Under the pieces are notes generated by a model. The model was not told the origin of the DNA, made no database searches, and saw only the letters and a list, made by a program, of their open reading frames with translations. A program made the position numbers and the translations under genes. From Rhodospirillales bacterium (GTDB lineage: Bacteria > Pseudomonadota > Alphaproteobacteria > Rhodospirillales > WMHbin7), in NCBI GenBank assembly GCA_016214125.1, contig JACRPC010000014.1:62001-126000 (forward strand): a stretch of DNA of 64,000 nucleotides, in the 5' to 3' direction. Of this stretch, positions 1,313 through 59,999 are shown piece by piece. Every line of letters starts with the position of its first letter. The first letter of the stretch is position 1.

Positions 1313-2767
1313 CTAGTGGACGGTGCAGACCATGCAGGGGTCGAAGGAGCGCACCACATGCTGCACCGCGATGGGGGTGGCTTCGTCATTCCCGACCGGC
1401 ACGCCCACCAAAGCCTGCTCCAAAGGCCCCGGCATACCGGCCCCGTCGCGGGGCGAGAAATTCCAGGTGGTGGGGGCGATGATCTGGTAGCGGGCGATCC
1501 GGCCATCCTCGACGGTCAGCCAATGGCCAAGCCCACCGCGCGCCGCCTCGACCAGGCCCACGCCCTGCGCCGTCTCGATCGGAACCGCCGGATGGCAGAA
1601 GGGACGATCGGGTTCCAGCTCGGCCGCCCAGCGCTCGAGCGCCGGAACAAGGCGGGCGATTTCGAGCAGGCGGGCGACGACGCGGCTTTCAACGTTGGAG
1701 CCCCTGTCCGCCCACAAGGCGCGGATCAGCGGATGGCCGGCGATCAGTTGACGGGCCAGCGCCCCCACTTCGACCGGCTGGCCGTTCAGGCGCGGCGCCT
1801 TGCACCAGCTATAGGCCTGGGGCTTGGCGAGATCGGGCCGGGTCTCGCCCTGCCCAGGATGGAGCGCGGCGCCGGCCATCCAGGCATGCGCCGGGTCTTC
1901 GACCAGCCCGGCCAGATCGAGCGGCCGCACCGCCTTGCCATCCCAAAGGCCGGCGGGAAGGAGCGCGCCCTCGGCCTCGGCATAGGCGCCGTAGCTGAGG
2001 GCCGGACCGGGCGCGCGGCCCAGTTCCGCAAGGCCGAGATCGGCGGCGATCGTCAGAAACAGGGCGGCGTCACCGCCGGCATGACGGGCGGCGAAGCGCG
2101 CGAGATCCGACCGATCGGCGAGATCGGCAAAGGCCTCCAGAGGCGCGGTGAAGAGATGCTCTTCGACATGGGCGCGGAATTCCGCCACCAGCGCCCGAAG
2201 CCGGCTGCGCTCGCCGCGATCGACCGGTTTCGAGGACCCACCCGGTTGAAGGGCCAAACTGTGCGGCCATTTCCCGGCCAGGATGCCCATGACCTGGAAG
2301 AAGCGGGCCCGCAACCGGGCCGCCGCGACAAGGGCCTGGCCGGCGCCGGGCTGGAAGCGCTGGAGGGCGCGCCCATGCCAGGGCCGGCCGGCATAGGCGG
2401 CGTGGGTGAAGTCGGGCATGAAGAACAGGTGGAAATGGACCAGATGGTCGGCGGCGTTCTCGGCGCCCAGCAGCAAATGGAAGGCGCGCCGTCCGTTGTC
2501 GGGGATCGCCAGCCCCATCGCGGCGGCCAGGGCCTTGGCGGTGGCCTGCGACTGGGCGACCGAGCAAATGCCGCAGATGCGCGGCGCCAGCACCAGGGCG
2601 TCGCTGGGCGGCTTGCCGTCGAGCATGGTTTCGAAGCCGCGAAAGAGCGGCGCGTTGACGCGGGCCGAGGCGATGCGGCCCCGATCGAGATCGAGATGGA
2701 CCTCGAGATCACCCTCGACCCGGTTGAAGGGACCGACGATCCGCCGGGCCGGCGCGGCGCCGCTCAT
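1313..2767 (-). CDS. hupV: Regulatory (H2-sensing) [NiFe] hydrogenase large subunit
   Basis: Large subunit (484 aa) of a cytoplasmic regulatory hydrogenase of the HupV/HoxC family, which binds H2 and signals to a histidine kinase rather than feeding respiration. The N-terminal NiFe motif is RICGICSVAQ (Cys65, Cys68); Gln replaces the usual His after CGICxxx, a hallmark of sensor hydrogenases. The second motif is DPCMVCTVH (Cys478, Cys481), and the protein stops directly after His484, so there is no C-terminal peptide for a maturation protease to remove, again as in HupV/HoxC. The start ATG overlaps the hupU stop (ATGA), so the subunits are translationally coupled. The assignment rests on these two features plus the adjacent hupU. 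Confidence 0.95.
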   Translation of the reverse strand: MSGAAPARRIVGPFNRVEGDLEVHLDLDRGRIASARVNAPLFRGFETMLDGKPPSDALVLAPRICGICSVAQSQATAKALAAAMGLAIPDNGRRAFHLLLGAENAADHLVHFHLFFMPDFTHAAYAGRPWHGRALQRFQPGAGQALVAAARLRARFFQVMGILAGKWPHSLALQPGGSSKPVDRGERSRLRALVAEFRAHVEEHLFTAPLEAFADLADRSDLARFAARHAGGDAALFLTIAADLGLAELGRAPGPALSYGAYAEAEGALLPAGLWDGKAVRPLDLAGLVEDPAHAWMAGAALHPGQGETRPDLAKPQAYSWCKAPRLNGQPVEVGALARQLIAGHPLIRALWADRGSNVESRVVARLLEIARLVPALERWAAELEPDRPFCHPAVPIETAQGVGLVEAARGGLGHWLTVEDGRIARYQIIAPTTWNFSPRDGAGMPGPLEQALVGVPVGNDEATPIAVQHVVRSFDPCMVCTVH

Positions 2768-3774
2768 GAGCCGCCCGGCGGTCGGTTGGCCGGCGGCACC
2801 ACGACGTGATCGGCCAGCGCGTTCTTGCGCACCCGATTGGGGGTGGCCGATTTGGAAAGCGCCGCCAGCGCCACGAACCAGGCCTTGGGCATGTCGACCG
2901 GCAGGCCGACCGGAATGCCCGCCACTTTCGGCGTTTCCTGCCAAGGCCCGATCGACTCGGTGAAGCCGGGCGAGGTGCAGTTGATGCAGGCGAACCCGGC
3001 GTTGGTGCAAGAGCCGATGCCGTTCCAGCGCCGCCGGTTGCAATCGCCCGGCGCCTGGGTGGCCTTGCAGCCTAGATTTTCCATCAGGCAGCCCTGCTGG
3101 CCGGGCGCCTGGGCGCTGGCCTTGAACTCGTAATATTCGTTGCGATTGCAGCCATGATGGGCGAGATGATCGGCAAAGAAGCGCGGCCGGTTGAAGGCAT
3201 CGAGATCGGCGGGCGCCAGCGTGCCCTCGGCCAGAGCCATGAGCGTTTCGACGATCCAGCCCGGATGCGGCGCGCAGCCGGCGATGTTGATCACCGGCAG
3301 ACCACCCTTGCCCCGCCAATCCTCGGGCAAAAGACCGCCGGCGCGAACGCCGTCGAATTGAAGGCCGGCGGCCTCGGTGACGCTGCCCGGCGTCGCCGCC
3401 ACGCCGCCAAAGGCGGCGCAGCTTCCCACCGCCACCACATGCCGCGCCACCCCGGCCAGATCGCGCAGAAGATCGGCCATCGGCCGCTCCAGGCCGGGCG
3501 CCATTTGAAAGCGGCCGCTGCCCGCCGGCCCACGCAACACCGCGCCTTCGACCACGAGCGCATCGAGGGGCTCGCGGCCGGCGCCGATTCGATCGAGAAG
3601 GTTTTGCAGATCGGCGCCGTTCTCGGCCGACAGCATCGGATGCCAGAGGGTGCGCACCCCCAGCCGTTCGCCTTGCAGAAACAGTGGCGGATCGGCATCG
3701 AGCGCGGCGTTGGCACAGCCGCCGCAGCTTGCCGCCTGAAGCCAGAGAAGCGTGAAGGGGGAAGGCGCGCTCAT
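2764..3774 (-). CDS. hupU: Regulatory (H2-sensing) [NiFe] hydrogenase small subunit
   Basis: Small subunit (336 aa) of the H2 sensor, partner of HupV. It begins MSAPSPFTLLWLQAASCGGC with the proximal cluster cysteines Cys17 and Cys20 almost at the N-terminus. It has no twin-arginine signal peptide, unlike HupS, which places it in the cytoplasm. GSCAAFGG, AGCAPHPG and the Cys-rich C-terminal half (HHGCNRNEYYEF, QGCLMENLGC, GDCNRRRW, CTNAGFACINC) provide the remaining cluster ligands. It is separated from hupE by a strong hairpin only 27 bp upstream of its start, leaving no room for a conventional promoter there. Expression may therefore be readthrough from the hupE sigma-54 promoter or start inside hupE. 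Confidence 0.95.
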   Translation of the reverse strand: MSAPSPFTLLWLQAASCGGCANAALDADPPLFLQGERLGVRTLWHPMLSAENGADLQNLLDRIGAGREPLDALVVEGAVLRGPAGSGRFQMAPGLERPMADLLRDLAGVARHVVAVGSCAAFGGVAATPGSVTEAAGLQFDGVRAGGLLPEDWRGKGGLPVINIAGCAPHPGWIVETLMALAEGTLAPADLDAFNRPRFFADHLAHHGCNRNEYYEFKASAQAPGQQGCLMENLGCKATQAPGDCNRRRWNGIGSCTNAGFACINCTSPGFTESIGPWQETPKVAGIPVGLPVDMPKAWFVALAALSKSATPNRVRKNALADHVVVPPANRPPGGS

Positions 3775-52494: not shown

Positions 52495-52675
52495 CCCCCT
52501 CTGTCTTGCGACCTGAAAGATTCACCAGGGCGTGCCCGGCTTACCTCGTCGGTGAGGCGGCCCATGGAACGGGCGGCCTACTTTCCAGATGCCCGCTCCC
52601 GCGCGGTCCTTTGGCCTGAGAGTTTCCGGGGGCGGTTGCTCCTTCGGCGCCGGACGGATCCGGTCTCTCCCGGGC
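52495..52675 (-). ncRNA. Tandem glycine riboswitch before gcvT
   Basis: Two glycine aptamers in series. Aptamer 1 (about 52600-52675) has GGGAGAGACC, GGCGCCGAAGGAGCAACC and AAACTCTCAGGCCAAAGGACCG. Aptamer 2 (about 52495-52592) has TCTGGAAAG, CACCGACGAGGTAAGCC and AATCTTTCAGGTCGCAAGACAGAGGGG-type 3' end; its GGAAAG/CTTTC pair is a compensatory version of GGAGAG/CTCTC. Downstream, CTCTGTC (52458-52464 on the plus strand as GACAGAG) can pair with the aptamer's GACAGAG (plus-strand 52499-52505), enclosing a hairpin and lying near the gcvT ribosome site, a likely expression platform. Confidence 0.93.
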
Positions 52676-52695
52676 GGGGTTCGTTAGGCAGGGTC

Positions 52696-52887: not shown

Positions 52888-54918
52888 ATGAAAACGCTGG
52901 CGGCCCAAGCCTTGATCGCCATCGCCTTGTTGCTGGTCCTGTGTCCGCTGGCGATCCTGGGACACCGGTTGAAGGCCATTCATGCCCTGGTCTATGGCGC
53001 CGCGACCCTGATCAGCATCCATCTGGCTGGGCTTGGCGTGATGGGCTTGTTGGACGGCGACGCGATCGGCTCTGCCGGCGTGACCTTGCCGATCGGCCTG
53101 CCTTGGCTTCGGGCGCATTTCCGCTTCGATGCGCTTTCCGCCCTGTTCCTGGTGGTGGTCAATCTCGGCACCACGGCGGCCAGCCTTTACGGCATCGGCT
53201 ATGGCGGCCACCTCGCCCACCCCAATCGGGTGACGCCGATTTACCCCCTGTTTCTGGCCGGCCTCAACCTGACGCTCTTGGCCGACGACGCCTTCGTCTT
53301 CCTGATCGGCTGGGAGTTCATGTCGGTCTCCTCCTGGCTCTTGGTGCTGGCCGATCACGAGAAGCCGGAGAACCGCGAGGCCGCCACCACCTATCTGGTG
53401 ATGGCGGTGTTGGGCAGCTTCTGCCTGTTGGGAGCGTTCGGCGTCTTGGCGATGAACGGCGAGGATTACAGCTTCGCCGCCATGCGCGGCGCGGTGCTCG
53501 ACACCGTCGAGGTGACACTGCTGGTCGGGCTGGTGCTGATCGGCGCCGGCTCGAAGGCCGGCGTGGTGCCGCTGCACGCCTGGCTGCCTTTGGCCCATCC
53601 GGCGGCGCCCAGCCATGTCTCGGCGCTGATGAGCGGGGTGATGACGAAAGTGGCGCTCTACGGCCTGGTGCGCATCCTGTTCGACTTGAACCGCCAGGCC
53701 GATTGGGAATGGGGCGCGCTCTTGATGCTGCTGGGCGCCGCCACCGCGGTGCTGGGCATCCTTTACGCCCTCATGCAGACCGACATCAAACGCATTTTGG
53801 CCTATTCAACGGTCGAGAATGTCGGCGTGGTCCTGCTGGGGCTGGGGCTGGCCCTGGCCTTCCGCGCCTCCAACGAGCCCGCCCTGGCGGCCCTGGCGCT
53901 GGCCGCCGGCTTCTACCATGTGCTTAATCACGCCGCGATGAAAACGCTCTTGTTCCTGGGCGCCGGCGCCGTGGCGGCGACGACCGCCGAGCGGAATATT
54001 GAGCGCCTGGGCGGCCTCATCCGCCTGATGCCGGTGACCGCCGTCACTTTCCTGATCGGATCGGCGGCGATCTCGGCCTTGCCGCCCCTGAACGGCTTCG
54101 TCTCGGAATGGCTGATTCTGCAGACGCTGTTCAAGGCTCCTTCGCTGCCGATGTGGACGATGAAATTCGGCGCGCCGGTGGCGGGGGCGCTTCTGGCGCT
54201 GTCGGCGGCGCTGGCAGCGGCCTGTTTCGTGCGCGCCTTCGGCATCGTCTTTCTCGGCCGCGCCCGCAGCCCGGCGACCCTTGATGCCCGCGATCCCGAC
54301 CCCTGGATGCGCGCCGCCCTGATCCTGACGGCGGGGCTGTGCCTGCTGTTGGGCATCCTGCCGGTCACCGTGACCTCGATGCTGTCCGACGTCAGTCAAA
54401 GCCTGATCGGCGTCGATCTTTCGGAATCGATCATTCAAGGTTGGCCGTGGCTGGCTCCGGTGAGCGCGGCGCGCGGCTCCTACAGCGGCACGGTGGTGGT
54501 GGCGTCGGGCCTGCTGATGATTCTCGTCACCGCCATCGTCATCAAGGGCTTCGGGACCCGCAAGATTCGCCGAGCCCCGGCCTGGGATTGCGGTCATGTC
54601 GAAGACAATCCGGCCACCCAATACACCGCTTCAAGCTTGGCGCAGCCGTTGCGCCGGGTGTTCGGCACCAGCCTGTTCGCCGCCCGCGAGCAGGTGGAGA
54701 TGCCGATGCCGGACGAAATCGCCCCAGCGCGCTTGAGCGTCCGGGTGATCGATCCGGTCTGGCAGGGGCTTTACGCGCCCGCCATCCGCGCCGTTGACTG
54801 GCTTGCCAACCGCATCAACCGCTTGCAAAGCCTGACGGTGCGCCGCCATTTGCTCTTGATGTTCCTCACCCTGATGGTGATGCTGGTGTTGGCGGCGATT
54901 AGGCGGATGCTGACATGA
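52888..54918 (+). CDS. hyfB: HyfB-like proton-translocating antiporter subunit of an Ehr/hydrogenase-4-type complex
   Basis: A 676-aa NuoL/MrpA-like membrane subunit with about 14-16 helices. Antiporter-type motifs: LIGWEFMSVSSWLLV (glutamate in helix), GSKAGVVPLHAWLPLAHPAAPSHVSALMSG, KRILAYSTVENVGVV, HVLNHAAMKTLLFL and NGFVSEWL. The C-terminal extension has the HyfB-type segment WDCGHVEDNPATQYTASSLAQPLRRVFG. It would pump ions in the membrane arm. ATG 52888 follows AGGGAGG with almost no spacer, which is unusual. It overlaps hyfC by 4 bp. The symbol is by homology to hydrogenase 4; the complex is probably not a hydrogenase (see the large subunit). Confidence 0.88.
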   Translation: MKTLAAQALIAIALLLVLCPLAILGHRLKAIHALVYGAATLISIHLAGLGVMGLLDGDAIGSAGVTLPIGLPWLRAHFRFDALSALFLVVVNLGTTAASLYGIGYGGHLAHPNRVTPIYPLFLAGLNLTLLADDAFVFLIGWEFMSVSSWLLVLADHEKPENREAATTYLVMAVLGSFCLLGAFGVLAMNGEDYSFAAMRGAVLDTVEVTLLVGLVLIGAGSKAGVVPLHAWLPLAHPAAPSHVSALMSGVMTKVALYGLVRILFDLNRQADWEWGALLMLLGAATAVLGILYALMQTDIKRILAYSTVENVGVVLLGLGLALAFRASNEPALAALALAAGFYHVLNHAAMKTLLFLGAGAVAATTAERNIERLGGLIRLMPVTAVTFLIGSAAISALPPLNGFVSEWLILQTLFKAPSLPMWTMKFGAPVAGALLALSAALAAACFVRAFGIVFLGRARSPATLDARDPDPWMRAALILTAGLCLLLGILPVTVTSMLSDVSQSLIGVDLSESIIQGWPWLAPVSAARGSYSGTVVVASGLLMILVTAIVIKGFGTRKIRRAPAWDCGHVEDNPATQYTASSLAQPLRRVFGTSLFAAREQVEMPMPDEIAPARLSVRVIDPVWQGLYAPAIRAVDWLANRINRLQSLTVRRHLLLMFLTLMVMLVLAAIRRMLT

Positions 54919-55859
54919 GCGCCGTCTGGCAAATCCTGCAGGCCCTGCTCTGCGTTGCCTTGGCGCCGCTCTTGACCGGCATCGTCCGCTGGGTCAAGGC
55001 CCGTCTGGTGGGGCGGCGCGGCGCCTCGCCGATCCAGCCCTACCGCGACCTCATCCGCCTGTTGCGCAAGGAATTGGTGCTGGCCCAGGACGCGAGCTGG
55101 TTGTTCCGCGCCGCCCCCTACTTGGTCTTCAGCCTCACCTGGCTGGCGGCGGCGATGGTGCCGGCCTTCACCACCAATTTGCTGCTGATCCCGGCCGCCG
55201 ATCTCATCACCCTGGTGGCGCTGTTGGGCGCGGCGCGCTTCTTCCTGGCCTTGGCCGGGCTCGACGTCGGCACCAGTTTCGGCGGCATCGGCACCTCGCG
55301 CGAGATGATGATCGCCTCCTTGGCCGAGCCGGCCATGCTGATGATCGTCTTCACCCTTTCGCTGTTGGCGGGCACCACCGCGCCGGCCCGTATCGTCGAT
55401 CATGTACTGGCCGGCGGTATCGGTCTGGAGGTCTCGATGGGTATGGCCTTGATCGCGCTGATCCTGGTGGCGATCGCCGAAAACGGCCGCATTCCCATCG
55501 ACAACCCAGCCACCCATCTCGAACTCACCATGGTGCATGAGGCGATGGTGCTGGAATACAGCGGCCGCCATCTGGCCTTGATCGAGGCGGCGTCGATGGT
55601 GCGTCTGCTGCTCTACGTCTCGCTCTTGGCCTGCATCTTCGCGCCCTGGGGAATCAGCCAATCGGGCAAGGGCGAGATCGGCATCCTGATCGGCCTGGCC
55701 AGCTACGGCGCCAAGATCGCGCTGGGCGCGGTGGCCCTGGGCGTCTTCGAGACCGCCATCGCCAAGATGCGGGTGTTCCGCTACGCCGACTTCCTGGGCG
55801 GCGCCCTGCTGCTTGCCGTGCTCGCCACCATCGTTCTCTACGTCTCCGAGGCGGTGTGA
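54915..55859 (+). CDS. hyfC: HyfC/HycD-like (NuoH-type) membrane subunit
   Basis: A 314-aa, eight-helix subunit equivalent to complex I NuoH and formate hydrogenlyase HycD, which links the hydrophilic module to the membrane arm. Signature segments: GRRGASPIQPYRDLIRLLRKE, GTSFGGIGTSREMMIASLAEP and AENGRIPIDNPATHLELTMVHEAMVLEYSG. Start overlaps hyfB (ATGA) and its stop overlaps hyfE by one base (TGATG). Confidence 0.92.
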   Translation: MSAVWQILQALLCVALAPLLTGIVRWVKARLVGRRGASPIQPYRDLIRLLRKELVLAQDASWLFRAAPYLVFSLTWLAAAMVPAFTTNLLLIPAADLITLVALLGAARFFLALAGLDVGTSFGGIGTSREMMIASLAEPAMLMIVFTLSLLAGTTAPARIVDHVLAGGIGLEVSMGMALIALILVAIAENGRIPIDNPATHLELTMVHEAMVLEYSGRHLALIEAASMVRLLLYVSLLACIFAPWGISQSGKGEIGILIGLASYGAKIALGAVALGVFETAIAKMRVFRYADFLGGALLLAVLATIVLYVSEAV

Positions 55860-56515
55860 TGAATTTCCATTACAGCGCGGCCCATCTGATCGGCGCCCTG
55901 GTCCTCCTCCTCGGATTCCAGCTTCTTTATCAGCGCCGCATCGCCGCGGTCATCCGCTCCTTCGCGGTGCAGGCCGCCGCGCTGGCCCTGGCGGCGGCCT
56001 GGCAGGCCTACATTCAAGATTCGCCGCATCTTTACATCACCGCCGCCATCGCCCTGGTCTTCAAGGCGATGATCGTGCCCTTCGCCCTCAACTGGCTGGT
56101 GGTGCGGCTGGGCATCCACAAGACCGTGGAGACCGCCCTGGGCATCGGTCCCACCATGATGATCGGCGTGGCGCTGGTGGCGCTGTCGATCGTCCTGGTG
56201 CTGCCGGTGACCCAGAACGCCAGCGCGCTGACGCGCGAGAATCTGGCGCTGGCGATGTCGGTGGTTCTTCTGGGCCTTCTGATGATGATCACGAGGCGCA
56301 ACGCGGTAAGCCAGGTGGTGGGCTTCATGGCGCTCGAGAACGGCCTGATCCTGGCGGCGGTGGGCGTCAAGGGCATGCCGCTGGTGGTCGAGATGTCGAT
56401 CGCCTTTTCGGTGCTGGTGGCGATGATTCTGTTCGGCATCTTCTTCTACCGCATCCGCGAGCGTTTCGATTCGCTCGACCTTCACTATCTCGAATCCTTC
56501 CGGGGCGAGCGATGA
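55859..56515 (+). CDS. hyfE: HyfE-like (NuoK-containing) membrane subunit
   Basis: A 218-aa hydrophobic protein with about seven helices. The C-terminal half is NuoK-like (FMALENGLILAAVGVKGMPLVVEMSIAF, conserved Glu in helix), and the N-terminal half carries the HyfE extension (HLYITAAIALVFKAMIVPFALNWLV). ATG 55859 is used; a GTG one codon earlier is possible. Overlaps hyfC by 1 bp and hyfF by 4 bp. Confidence 0.9.
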   Translation: MNFHYSAAHLIGALVLLLGFQLLYQRRIAAVIRSFAVQAAALALAAAWQAYIQDSPHLYITAAIALVFKAMIVPFALNWLVVRLGIHKTVETALGIGPTMMIGVALVALSIVLVLPVTQNASALTRENLALAMSVVLLGLLMMITRRNAVSQVVGFMALENGLILAAVGVKGMPLVVEMSIAFSVLVAMILFGIFFYRIRERFDSLDLHYLESFRGER

Positions 56516-57951
56516 CGCCGGTGGGTCTCATTCTGGGAACGCCGCTGCTGGCCGCCCTGGTCCTGGCCTGGATCACCGATTACCGACTGTCGAGCGCCCT
56601 TAATCTGTTGGCCTCGCTGATCACCTTCGGCGCCTCGCTGTTCCTGTTCGGCGTCCGCATTCCCGATTCGCTGTGGCTGTTCGTCGACGATTTCAACATC
56701 TACCTGGTGGTGCTGACCGCCTTCGTCGGCCTCACCACCAGCCTTTTTTCCGTCGGCTACATTGCCCGCGAGAAGGCCGAAGGGCATCTCACCGCCCGTC
56801 ACCTGCGCTTCTATCACGCCATGTATCAGGGCTTCCTCTTCACCATGCTCTTGGCCTTGCTTGCCAACAATCTGGGCGTGATGTGGGTGGCGATCGAGGG
56901 CGCGACGCTGACCACCGTCCTGATGGTGAGCCTTTATCGGACGCGGGAATCGATCGAGGCGGCCTGGAAATATTTCATCCTCTGCAGCGTCGGCATCGCG
57001 CTGGCGCTGTTCGGCATCATCCTCATTTATCTCGCCGCCCAGCCGGCGATGGGACCGGGACCCGAGGCGATGGCCTGGACCGAGGTTCTGCGCGCCGCCG
57101 GGCGCTTCGAGCCGGCTCTGATGAGCCTGGCCTTCGTCTTTCTCTTGGTCGGCTACGGAACCAAGGCCGGCCTCGCCCCGTTGCACGCCTGGCTGCCCGA
57201 CGCCCATGCCGAAGGCCCGACGCCGATTTCCGCCGTGCTGTCGGGCCTGCTTCTCAACGTCGCGCTTTACGCCCTCCTGCGCTTCAAGATGATTCTGACC
57301 GCCAACGGTGCCGCGCTCGATCCCGGTCCGCTATTGATCGGCATGGGGTTAACCTCGCTTCTGCTGGCCGGCTTCATGCTGTACCGGCGCAACGACATCA
57401 AGCGCCTGTTCGCCTATTCCTCGATCGAGCATATGGGCATCATCACCTTCGCCTTCGGCATGGGCGGCGCGGTTGCCAATTTCGCCGGCCTCCTGCACAT
57501 GACCATGCACAGCTTGGCGAAATCGGCGATCTTCTTCGCCGTCGGCATCATCAGCCAGATTGCCGGCACCAAGAAGATCGCCGACATCCGAGGGCTCACG
57601 GTCAGCCATCCGCTCTTGGGCTGGAGCTTTCTGGTGGCGGTGGCGGCCATCGCCGGCCTGCCGCCGCTCGGCATCTTCATGAGCGAGTTTCTGGTGGTCA
57701 GCTCGACCTTCGCCCGCCAACCCTGGCTGGCGGTGCCTCTTCTGATCGGGCTCTTGGTCGCCTTCGGCGCTTTGATCCTCAAGCTCACCGGGCTGGCTTT
57801 CGGCCCTCCCAGCATCGGCGCCAGCCAACGCTACCATCCGCTGGCGCTGGCCCCCTTGTTCGGCCATGTGGCGCTGGTGGCCGTGGCGGGCATCTGGTTG
57901 CCCGAGCCGCTGCTGCGCTGGTTTCAGATTGTCGCCCGGTTGTTGGGGTAG
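56512..57951 (+). CDS. hyfF: HyfF-like (NuoL/N-type) antiporter subunit
   Basis: A 479-aa second ion-translocating subunit, about 13 helices. Motifs: MWVAIEGATLTTVLMVSLYRT (helix Glu), GYGTKAGLAPLHAWLPDAHAEGPTPISAVLSGLLLN, RRNDIKRLFAYSSIEHMGIIT, HMTMHSLAKSAIFFAVG and GIFMSEFLVV. It closely follows the HyfF pattern. It ends 3 bp before the large-subunit gene. Confidence 0.9.
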   Translation: MTPVGLILGTPLLAALVLAWITDYRLSSALNLLASLITFGASLFLFGVRIPDSLWLFVDDFNIYLVVLTAFVGLTTSLFSVGYIAREKAEGHLTARHLRFYHAMYQGFLFTMLLALLANNLGVMWVAIEGATLTTVLMVSLYRTRESIEAAWKYFILCSVGIALALFGIILIYLAAQPAMGPGPEAMAWTEVLRAAGRFEPALMSLAFVFLLVGYGTKAGLAPLHAWLPDAHAEGPTPISAVLSGLLLNVALYALLRFKMILTANGAALDPGPLLIGMGLTSLLLAGFMLYRRNDIKRLFAYSSIEHMGIITFAFGMGGAVANFAGLLHMTMHSLAKSAIFFAVGIISQIAGTKKIADIRGLTVSHPLLGWSFLVAVAAIAGLPPLGIFMSEFLVVSSTFARQPWLAVPLLIGLLVAFGALILKLTGLAFGPPSIGASQRYHPLALAPLFGHVALVAVAGIWLPEPLLRWFQIVARLLG

Positions 57952-57954
57952 GCG

Positions 57955-59472
57955 ATGACCAACACCACCGTCCTTCTCGATTTCTTCCGCTACCGGCCCT
58001 CGGCGCCGAACCACCGCCCCTGGCCGCGCTATCGGCTGGAGGAAGCCGACTGGCGAACGATGATCGACATCGTGGCGGTGAGCGATTGGGACTTGCTGGG
58101 ACTGTGGGCGACGGCGGGCGAGGTTCACGCGGCGCTGCGCGAAAGCGAAAACGCCGCGGTCGTTGTGGCGTCGCTTGCCTGTCCGATGGGCCGCTACCCC
58201 GCCCTGTCGGGCGTGCGGCCGGGCGCCATTCGGCTTGAGCGGATGATCCGCGATCTTTGGGGTCTGGAGGCCGAAGGCGCCGCCGACCAGCGCCCCTGGC
58301 TCGATCACGGCCGCTGGCCCGTCGCCACCCCGCTTGGCGTGGCCGCCCCCCGCCAACCCGAACGTCTCCCCTACGCCTTCCAGACGGCCGAGGGCGACGG
58401 CATCCACCAGATTCCGGTCGGGCCGGTGCATGCCGGCATCATCGAGCCCGGCCATTTCCGCTTCCACGCCAACGGCGAGACCGTGGTGCGGTTGGAGGAG
58501 CGGCTGGGCTATGTCCACAAGGGCATCGAATCCTTGATGGCCGGCAAGACGCCCCAGGAAGCGGCGAGGCTGGCCGGGCGGATATCGGGCGACAGCACGG
58601 TGGCGCACGCCTTGGCCTTTGCCCGCGCCGTCGAGGCCGCCGCCGGCATCGAGGCGCCGCCCCGGGCCCACTGGCTGCGCGCCCTGATGGCCGAGTTGGA
58701 GCGGATCGCCAACCATCTGGGCGATTTCGGCGCCGTCTGCAACGACGCCGCCTTCGTCATCATGCTTGCCCATGCCCTCGCTCTCAAGGAAGGCGTGCTG
58801 CGCGCCGCACGCGACGTCTTCGGCCATCGCCTGATGATGGATCGGGTGGTGCCGGGCGGCGTGACGGTCGATCTCGACCGCGCCCAGGCCGAAACCCTGC
58901 GCACCCTGGTCCGCCGCCTTCGTCCCCGCTTCGCCGAACTGGAGGCGCTGTACGACGCCACGCCGTCGCTGCTCGATCGCACCGTCGGCACCGGTGTCAC
59001 CCTGGCCTCGCTGGTGCATCGCTACGCGGCCGGCGGTGTCGTCGGTCGCGCGGCGGGCCGTGCCCTCGATGGGCGGCGCATGCCCGGCTATCCGCCTTAT
59101 GACGATCTCGATTTCCAGGTGCCGCTGGAAGCCGATGGCGACGTCCACGCCCGGCTCCTGGTTCGACTGGCGGAGATCAAGGAGAGCTTGGCCCTGGTCG
59201 AGAAGATCGTCGACGGCCTGCCCGCGGGTCCCCTCATTCGGCCGGTGCCGGAACAAGCCGGCGAAGGTCTGGCGCTGGTCGAGGGCTTTCGGGGCGAGAT
59301 TCTCACCTGGGTGCGGCTTGACGAGAAGGGCCGGGTGGCGCGGTGTTTCCCGCGCGATCCGTCATGGTTCCAATGGCCGCTTCTGGAAGCGGCGATCGAG
59401 GGCAACATCGTCGCCGACTTCCCGCTCTGCAACAAATCGTTCAACTGTTCCTATTCGGGACATGATCTATGA
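57955..59472 (+). CDS. HyfG-like NuoC-NuoD fusion large subunit lacking the NiFe ligands
   Basis: A 505-aa protein with an N-terminal NuoC-like domain (about 1-125, ending MIRDLWGLEAEGAADQRPWL) fused to a NuoD/[NiFe] large-subunit domain (GPVHAGIIEPGHFRF, HKGIESLMAG, ERIANHLGDFG), the HycE/HyfG architecture. The L1 motif that should read RxCGxCxxxH is GRISGDSTVAH (Ser211, Ser214, His218). The L2 motif that should read DPCxxC is FNCSYSGHDL at the very C-terminus (Ser499, Gly502 at the ligand positions; Cys492 and Cys498 do not form CxxC). All four Cys ligands in register are absent and there is no cleavable tail, so it cannot hold a normal NiFe site. This is the hallmark of Ehr (energy-converting hydrogenase-related) complexes. 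Confidence 0.88.
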   Translation: MTNTTVLLDFFRYRPSAPNHRPWPRYRLEEADWRTMIDIVAVSDWDLLGLWATAGEVHAALRESENAAVVVASLACPMGRYPALSGVRPGAIRLERMIRDLWGLEAEGAADQRPWLDHGRWPVATPLGVAAPRQPERLPYAFQTAEGDGIHQIPVGPVHAGIIEPGHFRFHANGETVVRLEERLGYVHKGIESLMAGKTPQEAARLAGRISGDSTVAHALAFARAVEAAAGIEAPPRAHWLRALMAELERIANHLGDFGAVCNDAAFVIMLAHALALKEGVLRAARDVFGHRLMMDRVVPGGVTVDLDRAQAETLRTLVRRLRPRFAELEALYDATPSLLDRTVGTGVTLASLVHRYAAGGVVGRAAGRALDGRRMPGYPPYDDLDFQVPLEADGDVHARLLVRLAEIKESLALVEKIVDGLPAGPLIRPVPEQAGEGLALVEGFRGEILTWVRLDEKGRVARCFPRDPSWFQWPLLEAAIEGNIVADFPLCNKSFNCSYSGHDL

Positions 59473-59999
59473 GTCTGCTGCGTCTTCTTGCCCGCGCGCT
59501 TCTCAAGGGGCCGATCACCGAGGCGCCCCCCGATCCGGATCGGGCGGCGTTGGCCGATCTGGCGCAGCGCGTGGCCGAAACGGCGCGCGGACGCCTGGGA
59601 CGCAGCCTGGTGATCCGCGAGGTCGATGCCGGGTCCTGCAACGGCTGCGAATTGGAAATCCACGCTCTTGGCAACCCGCTTTACGACATCGACCGCTTCG
59701 GCATCCGCTTCGCCGCCTCGCCCCGCCATGCCGACGTGCTCCTGGTCACCGGCCCCGTCGCCCTCAACATGGCCGAAGCGCTCAAACGCACCTACGACGC
59801 CACGCCGGCGCCCAAATGGGTGGTGGCGGCCGGCGATTGCGCCAAGGATGGCGGCTGCTTCGCCGGCAGCTACGCCGTGGCCGGTGGCGTTTCGGCGATT
59901 CTTCCCGTCGATTTGGTGATTCCCGGCTGCCCGCCGACGCCGACGGCCCTGCTCTCCGGCTTGGTGGCGCTCTTGGACCAGGCGGCGAGGCGAGGGTGA
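59469..59999 (+). CDS. hyfI: HyfI-like (NuoB-type) Fe-S small subunit
   Basis: A 176-aa NuoB/HycG-family subunit expected to carry one [4Fe-4S] cluster next to the large subunit. Cluster ligands are kept: SCNGCELE (Cys57, Cys60), GDCAKDGGC and PGCPPTP. It overlaps the large-subunit gene by 4 bp (ATGA) and is followed by rlmJ with a GTGA overlap. Retention of the cluster while the partner has lost NiFe ligands suggests electron transfer still occurs. Confidence 0.9.
   Translation: MSLLRLLARALLKGPITEAPPDPDRAALADLAQRVAETARGRLGRSLVIREVDAGSCNGCELEIHALGNPLYDIDRFGIRFAASPRHADVLLVTGPVALNMAEALKRTYDATPAPKWVVAAGDCAKDGGCFAGSYAVAGGVSAILPVDLVIPGCPPTPTALLSGLVALLDQAARRG

Follow-up and report, generated by a model that had tools for sequence, protein, structure and literature searches.

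An Ehr-type operon without NiFe ligands in a Rhodospirillales genome and its possible role as a proton-pumping oxidoreductase

A six-gene operon of a Rhodospirillales bacterium is predicted to encode a membrane complex of the Ehr (Ech hydrogenase-related complex) kind, in which the large subunit of a hydrogenase-4-like enzyme has lost the ligands of its NiFe site. The operon occupies positions 52888-59999 of the window, i.e., the whole 64,000-nucleotide stretch of DNA that was analyzed, which sits in a 3.99-Mb draft genome (G000). Its assignment as Ehr, meaning hyfBCEFGI without NiFe ligands, can be made firmly from published descriptions, and the group 4 hydrogenase- and complex I-like subunits (small, large, NuoH-like, and antiporter-like) are all present in the one operon. 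The operon is real, looks functional, and belongs to a type already described and found in many genomes. We propose, as a plausible reading with somewhat less than an even chance of being correct, that Ehr is a proton-translocating oxidoreductase passing electrons from a low-potential carrier (ferredoxin or flavodoxin) to quinone; the carrier, the quinone partner, the direction of transfer, and proton pumping are what we infer.

The six frames run in one direction in hyfB-C-E-F-G-I order, as the first-pass annotation of this DNA had stated, and NCBIfam and Pfam assignments agree. Four of the five gene junctions are 4-base overlaps and the F/G junction is a 3-base gap; the starts of B and F were chosen inside longer frames, and that of E may lie 3 bases later. 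All genes lie on the forward strand. The hyfB-like antiporter-type subunit (52888..54918, 676 amino acids) passes the NCBIfam equivalog "hydrogenase 4 subunit B" (NF005086, 798 bits versus a cutoff of 667), matches PF00361, and keeps E143, K223, K254, and E407, while the second antiporter-type subunit, hyfF-like (56512..57951, 479 amino acids), passes that for "subunit F" (NF005043, 778 bits versus 533) and keeps E129, K218, and E392. Between them lie a hyfC/NuoH-like subunit (54915..55859, 314 amino acids, PF00146) with E138, D196, E203, and E214 kept and a hyfE/NuoK-like subunit (55856..56515, 219 amino acids) that reaches 81 bits with NF008556, below the cutoff of 136, and has no Pfam match. 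The hyfG/NuoCD-like large subunit without NiFe ligands (57955..59472, 505 amino acids) was identified by NCBIfam, Pfam, alignment with HycE, and an AlphaFold model. It is followed by the hyfI/NuoB-like subunit (59469..59999, 176 amino acids; NF005012, 138 bits versus 116), in which C57, C60, C124, and C154 would bind one [4Fe-4S] cluster. HyfH/NuoI, HyfD, and HyfJ were not found at the window locus, a point on which the first-pass annotation is silent, and because NuoI is absent, this NuoB-type cluster is the only one predicted.

In the large subunit, GRISGDST replaces RVCGICG and FNCSYSG replaces DPCYSC. Alignment with Escherichia coli HycE puts RISGDSTVAH (58579..58608) where HycE has its first CxxC motif, RVCGICGFAH, and NCSYSG (59443..59460) where it has DPCYSC, as had been read from the letters at the outset, so that the RxCGxC and DPCxxC ligands of hydrogenase-4 and formate hydrogenlyase (FHL) are missing from the window protein. 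At the four NiFe ligand columns, defined by this alignment, it carries S, S, S, and G, and the NuoB-type cluster cysteines are kept, which upholds the original call of an Ehr-type complex. Across 118 distinct Ehr large subunits, the columns read S116/C2, S109/A7/T1/M1, S115/A3, and G118; the ligand cysteines are wholly missing from 116, and the first alone is kept in two (L064 and L162). Cys-bearing reference proteins have C at all four columns (6/6). D213, K494, S495, N497, and G502 are invariant in all 118 proteins. Seventy-nine of the 118 were fetched by a peptide-pattern scan, with CNKSFNCS as one pattern, and are to that extent biased; in the remaining 39, which were found by BLAST or hidden Markov model or are the window protein itself, the columns read S38/C1, S35/A3/M1, S36/A3, and G39, no ligand cysteine occurs in 38, and the same five residues are again invariant (39/39). 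C492 (26/39) and C498 (34/39) vary within this subset. The candidate reading that C498 in NCSYSG is one retained ligand cysteine was dropped, since the gap-free HycE alignment puts C498 on a HycE proline.

The window protein has no cleavable tail, as the first-pass annotation had said: it ends 3 residues beyond NCSYSG, at the HycE cleavage (Arg) column, where all 118 Ehr large subunits end, and four hydrogenase-3/4 proteins extend 32 residues past this column. The trait is not diagnostic, however, because two Cys-bearing group 4 proteins (L036 and L037) also end there. An AlphaFold model of the large subunit (pLDDT, 90.3; pTM, 0.92), the input alignment of which included two true HyfG proteins, is poor (<50) at residues 1 to 3, 160 to 165, and 502 to 505, including I163 and G502. 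Its top PDB chain is HycE (7z0s_E; TM score, 0.91), and E. coli and Aquifex NuoCD chains come next, with TM scores by query of 0.80 to 0.89 among the matches listed.

A tree of 43 rows with NuoD as the root gathers its 33 Ehr proteins into a single clade (100/100), whose sister is HycE/HyfG (97/93); NuoD lies outside, and two Cys-bearing group 4 proteins fall outside Ehr plus HycE/HyfG. A tree with these families had been suggested when the operon was first described, and it gives Ehr a clade of its own outside the true hydrogenases HycE/HyfG. The accompanying description placed the complex between group 4 hydrogenases and complex I; it is better put on the group 4 side. Since Ehr forms one clade beside HycE/HyfG, the simplest history would be that the NiFe site was lost once, long ago. 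The exact neighbor of the Ehr clade is less sure than the clade itself, given the long stem leading to Ehr, bootstrap values that were still shifting, and the long-branch flag raised for two odd Nuo-like rows (L038 and L042). These two, at L038:9500-10867 and L042:9294-11147, are odd Nuo/hydrogenase-like large subunits from the same order that end in SLDACPPEVDR and SLQVCPPEIER, with one Cys close to the ligand place.

The ratio of nonsynonymous to synonymous substitution rates (dN/dS) for hyfG is 0.057 (G001/G002) and 0.14 (G034/G051), and the gene is under purifying selection. Together with orthologs in 5/5 genomes of the family, the window's own included, the conserved substituted motifs, and the retention of most pump residues in 24/24 orthologs, this supports the earlier view that the operon is functional and not decaying. 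Recent cysteine loss accompanied by frame damage in sister strains, named by the first-pass annotation as evidence that would count the other way, was not seen. The Geobacter Ehr is termed "already nonfunctional" in a passage of PMC13194489; for the clade studied here, the conservation found speaks against that description.

Ehr is present in 12/60 genomes of the order, the window's own counted, i.e., the 5 of the family and 7 others. HyfF exceeds its cutoff in 51/299 Pseudomonadota genomes, and a large-subunit search of 32 genomes gave 27 near-full-length matches of at least 437 bits plus the contig-cut G203; G169 and G279 are true Hyf by their tails, G297 is probably Hyf, and G227 has only a NuoD-like match. 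Four Ehr genomes (G062, G108, G173, and G215) fall under the HyfF cutoff. Relatives are encoded by at least 576 stretches of genome contigs and occur in many Azospirillum, Bradyrhizobium, and Rhizobium among the matches listed; one viral-contig scan contained none. Counted without a check of their motifs, 61 plasmid records have a match covering 80% or more of the query, including 39 from Rhizobium or Azospirillum and 2 from Rhodococcus. In plasmid records H1 and H13-H37 (e.g., NC_008384, L186), the names given to the Ehr large subunit include "nickel-dependent hydrogenase large subunit," "NADH-quinone oxidoreductase subunit C," and "hydrogenase expression protein HypE."

Residues of the electron entry and pump were counted in 24 sampled orthologs. 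The NuoB-type cysteines are retained, one ortholog having His at the last position. HyfB E143, K223, and E407, HyfF E129, K218, and E392, and NuoH-like E138, D196, E203, and E214 are found in 24/24, and HyfB K254 is found in 23/24; the place of NuoM K265 in HyfF is Asn in 24/24, as it is in E. coli HyfF. The first-pass statement that the ion-pump motifs are intact thus holds for the antiporter-like residues and most NuoH-like ones but not for the NuoH and NuoK positions weighed below. As judged from these residues, the pump is probably mostly intact, and the reaction pocket is that of neither a hydrogenase nor complex I.

Partner modules were sought in 107 Ehr loci of >6 kb (106 distinct, as L030 equals L045; some are cut by contig ends), with positive controls from E. 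coli and two true Hyf loci (L180/L181). NuoI, NuoE-G, HycI, HycH/HyfJ, and HypA/B were found in 0/107, and NuoA and NuoJ likewise were not found, so that the NuoEFG and NuoI modules of complex I are missing throughout. The genes that mark hydrogenase-4/FHL clusters (HyfA/HycB, HyfH, maturation, and formate dehydrogenase genes) are absent except for weak (<80-bit) matches, namely, one HyfA/HycB-like (L059), one HyfH/HycF-like (L071), two HypC, and three FdhF-like, the last from a search with two partial FdhF queries; the lack of a HycB-like ferredoxin, formate dehydrogenase, and maturation gene noted for the window operon extends to its relatives. Immediately 5' of hyfB, on the same strand, a small XRE-type regulator (recognized by eye) stands in 30 of the 62 loci that extend 700 bases or more ahead of hyfB, frequently sharing a few bases with that gene (e.g., L061, L092, and L104); a Rhizobium johnstonii record calls it "helix-turn-helix transcriptional regulator." None precedes hyfB at the window locus, other helix-turn-helix-like genes (by eye) take the upstream place in some more distant loci, and an opposite-strand XRE copy lies downstream in five Bradyrhizobium loci (L062, L071, L074, L086, and L090). 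Because partner modules are missing at the loci and this regulator is the sole recurrent neighbor, the complex is self-contained and often locally regulated. Clustering of the neighbors of 92 plus 20 loci (2 of the 20 being true Hyf), with few of these neighbors annotated, yielded no recurring metabolic partner gene; several recurrent "clusters" were discarded as spurious reverse-strand open reading frames of Hyf genes.

One reduced genome of the same order, G046 (L192:5000-6450 and L031; 0.945-Mb draft in hand, 33% GC, 45 tRNA genes), has retained Ehr without complex I. E. coli NuoE to NuoK have no tblastn match in it, and its nuoB, nuoC, and nuoD are only short frames broken by stops; it is the only complex I-less case found, because G062 and G173, which lacked NuoD in an earlier search, have NuoB. 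Its hyfB, hyfE, hyfF, hyfG, and hyfI are full length, and hyfC spans a contig break. Its HyfG shares 62% identity with the G025 protein, close to the 61% of its FixC homologue, and the contigs concerned are alike in GC (32 to 38%). Citrate synthase, SucA/B, CydAB, COX1, nifH, and RnfC have no match in G046, nor does the formate dehydrogenase alpha subunit (Fdh-alpha) at an E value of 0.001. Only a few iron-sulfur and related proteins were found, namely, a fixABCX-like operon, a second electron-transferring flavoprotein pair, fumarate reductase, and GlpABC-like proteins, in addition to an Nfn/Sud-like fusion and a YfhL-type ferredoxin. Menaquinone is the expected quinone, because MenA and a UbiE-like protein are present and UbiA/B/C/G have no match. 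NrdD points to an anaerobic life for this organism, which also encodes a membrane pyrophosphatase and succinyl-CoA:acetate transferase. Characterized FixABCX enzymes carry out electron bifurcation, and, with no nifH found, the Fix-like system of G046 would have no nitrogenase to feed. The natural reading would be that the Fix-like enzyme oxidizes NADH, sending electrons to menaquinone and ferredoxin, and that Ehr, as it pumps, hands the electrons of ferredoxin on to menaquinone.

In the proposed reading, Ehr would be a six-subunit membrane-bound complex derived from a hydrogenase-3/4-type ancestor whose NiFe site was lost. As NuoI/HyfH and all upstream modules are missing, electrons would come straight from ferredoxin, FixX, or flavodoxin to the one [4Fe-4S] cluster, in the NuoB-like subunit, and would exit to quinone at the remodeled NiFe pocket (S211, D213, S214, K494, N497, and S499). 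The energy released would drive protons through the NuoH- and NuoK-like subunits and the two antiporter-like subunits; run in reverse, the complex could use proton motive force to push quinol electrons onto the carrier. A more specific version, which we hold to be possible but doubtful, is that Ehr is a stripped-down pumping ferredoxin (or FixX/flavodoxin):quinone oxidoreductase with one Fe-S cluster and that FixABCX-like bifurcation plus Ehr replaces complex I in the menaquinone/fumarate respiration of at least one reduced anaerobic alphaproteobacterium.

Several observations weigh against these proposals. In the pocket, Ile in 117/118 and Gly in 116/118 Ehr proteins stand in place of His38 and Tyr87, respectively, the quinone residues of NuoD (Thermus numbering, placed from the alignment), and the window protein has I163 and G212; with the quinone head-group ligands of complex I gone, quinone would need a different binding mode. 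In the pump, NuoH E216 and E218, in the loop between transmembrane helices 5 and 6, are replaced (by A and H, with a 3-residue insertion, in the window subunit at 54915..55859); E218 is His in 24/24 orthologs, and in the sequences displayed the loop has 3 extra residues. Opposite NuoK E36 and E72, the HyfE-like subunit has nonacidic residues, as does E. coli HyfE. Co-occurrence counts and Fisher values, here and below, ignore kinship. NuoD is also present in 11/12 Ehr genomes of the order. On the supporting side, FixC homologues are enriched in Ehr genomes: one occurs, at an E value of 1e-70, in 3/12 Ehr genomes (in one as a 206-residue piece) versus 0/48 without Ehr, and, among the 299 Pseudomonadota, one occurs in 7/51 with HyfF over the cutoff versus 6/248, the four sub-cutoff Ehr genomes being counted as without. 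FixABCX as a universal partner was rejected, FixC being below the threshold in 9/12 and 44/51 Ehr genomes, and Fix is not the general donor, as most Ehr genomes, including the window's own, have no FixC homologue at the threshold used. The G046 case comes from one draft genome, in which Ehr is the only complex I-type pump found in a search that did not cover Nqr. Its FixA, FixB, FixC, FixX, YfhL-type ferredoxin, GlpA, GlpB, and FrdC fall below NCBIfam cutoffs and were named by gene order and best match, in an inventory made partly by eye, and its Nfn/Sud-like protein could use the reduced ferredoxin itself.

Alternatively, the reverse direction may be the normal role, with proton motive force lifting quinol electrons to ferredoxin or flavodoxin, e.g., for nitrogenase. 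The gene nifH occurs in 8/12 Ehr genomes (G021 counted, its gene being split) versus 8/48 (P = 0.001), and G034 and G051 have nifH and Ehr but no match to RnfC or FixC that reaches the thresholds used. However, the count is confounded by kinship (G001 to G004 are one genus, and G034/G051 are another), and the association of RnfC is unclear (6/12 versus 11/48; P = 0.08). Nitrogenase as a universal role was rejected because G000, G011, G046, and G047 have Ehr and no nifH; G046, in which no terminal oxidase was found, is unlikely to have proton motive force to spare. We consider reverse flow as the usual role to be rather unlikely. Taken together, the partner co-occurrence counts lean weakly toward low-potential electron metabolism.

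The old NiFe pocket may instead serve another reductant or oxidant, such as sulfane, polysulfide, or a small organic compound, in the manner of archaeal Mbs/Mbx. Mbs is a sulfane reductase. The invariant pocket residues fit neither NiFe nor the quinone residues of complex I, and a passage of PMC6349859 cites Mbx as an Ehr-related ferredoxin oxidoreductase. The absence of a recurring metabolic gene beside the operon, among clustered neighbors of which few are annotated, tells against a dedicated substrate of this type, which we judge unlikely.

Formate or CO might also supply the electrons, a separately encoded formate or CO dehydrogenase docking on Ehr and feeding quinone. Such a formate dehydrogenase-Ehr arrangement has been proposed for Margulisbacteria/Saganbacteria (PMC6349859), the Nitrospira nitrosa operon adjoins a CO dehydrogenase (PMC5596200), and Geobacter Ehr proteins are described as abundant on formate (PMC7894505), in the passages concerned. 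The window genome itself has Fdh-alpha over the cutoff. Yet Fdh-alpha over the cutoff is rarer in Ehr genomes (2/12 versus 30/48; Fisher P = 0.008), and on these counts, formate dehydrogenase as an obligate partner was rejected; G034, G047, and G051 do have full-length matches under the cutoff (442 to 480 bits) that may be formate dehydrogenases. The counts argue against formate as the general donor, as do the absence of Fdh-alpha from G046 and the scarcity of FdhF-like neighbors described above (a locus search that did not include CO dehydrogenase), and the chance that Ehr is generally formate or CO linked appears small.

A redox-silent cation/proton exchanger, whose soluble part acts as nothing more than a plug or regulator, would accord with intact antiporter-type subunits and a single predicted cluster, but kept cluster cysteines and old-active-site residues invariant in 118/118 proteins are hard to explain without chemistry there, and we regard this alternative as improbable. 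That the complex is a true hydrogenase, either decaying or with an unusual site, is scarcely credible: its nearest kin and fold are HycE/HyfG and an automatically assigned name is "nickel-dependent hydrogenase large subunit," but the idea is contradicted by the sequence, given the ligand cysteines absent from 116/118, strong conservation with low dN/dS, and only two weak HypC-like matches as maturation genes beside 107 loci.

Ehr was first identified in Geobacter (PMC3569383), and complexes without NiFe ligands have been reported from Geobacter, Sulfobacillus, Nitrospira, ammonia-oxidizing archaea, and candidate phyla and the hyfBCEFGI set from Nitrospira and Acidithiobacillus (PMC7894505, PMC13194489, PMC4378227, PMC3569383, PMC12342949, PMC10284858, PMC10432482, PMC6349859, PMC5596200, and PMC7735108). 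In the passages available, the Ehr complexes share with the window operon the group 4- and complex I-like subunits, including a HyfE-like one, and mostly lack NiFe ligands; Desulfotomaculum is also listed among the bearers, the D. ruminis EhrL being said to keep four Cys. By description, the Geobacter operon spans seven gene numbers (GSU0739-45) versus six genes in the window operon. The hyfBCEFGI clusters of Acidithiobacillus ferrooxidans and Nitrospira have, by name, the same genes and order as the window operon; HydDB calls the A. ferrooxidans cluster nonhydrogenase, and the CO dehydrogenase neighbor in N. nitrosa has no counterpart visible next to the window genes. In E. coli, hydrogenase-4 (hyf) and hydrogenase-3/FHL-1 (hyc) have B, C, E, F, G, and I in the same relative order, and HycE is the best fold match, but HyfA, HyfD, HyfH, HyfJ, the NiFe cysteines, and the 32-residue tail are missing from the window operon. 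With complex I (NuoA-N), Ehr shares homologues of NuoB, NuoCD, NuoH, and NuoL/M/N, many pump residues, and the fold match of NuoCD; it differs in lacking NuoA, E, F, G, I, and J in the loci and in the replacement of NuoD His38 and Tyr87. Partners suggested in these sources are formate dehydrogenase and CO dehydrogenase; their passages identify no Ehr substrate, in agreement with the first-pass annotation, which had left redox partner and substrate open. Ehr is not mentioned in the passages seen of a complex I mining paper (PMC12361115), and the literature search made here returned no paper linking Ehr with FixABCX. What the present analysis adds is the motif of fixed replacement residues, the lack of NuoI, the negative formate dehydrogenase result, and a complex I-less genome with Ehr.

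At the window locus, the operon is flanked by a divergent gcvT and followed by an RlmJ-like frame (by eye) and an S49 peptidase, and no link of these genes to the operon is visible. Two glycine riboswitch aptamers (RF00504) lie at 52498-52682 on the reverse strand, ahead of gcvT and divergent from hyfB. At the start of the window, two sets of [NiFe] hydrogenase genes were recognized by eye on the reverse strand (2-1093 and 1313-3774): the first small subunit carries an RRSFLQ signal and is cut by the window edge, and the second small/large pair has no signal, with RICGIC and DPCMVC in the large frame, and looks regulatory hydrogenase-like.

In sum, the fixed residues SGDST and NKSxNxSYSG provide a motif that could keep databases from misnaming Ehr large subunits as "hydrogenase 4," "NADH-quinone oxidoreductase subunit C," or "HypE." These residues, the missing NuoI, and the complex I-less G046 narrow the Ehr question to a few direct assays. 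If the proposed pairing of FixABCX-like bifurcation with Ehr is true, it would constitute a two-enzyme, NuoI-free bypass of complex I.

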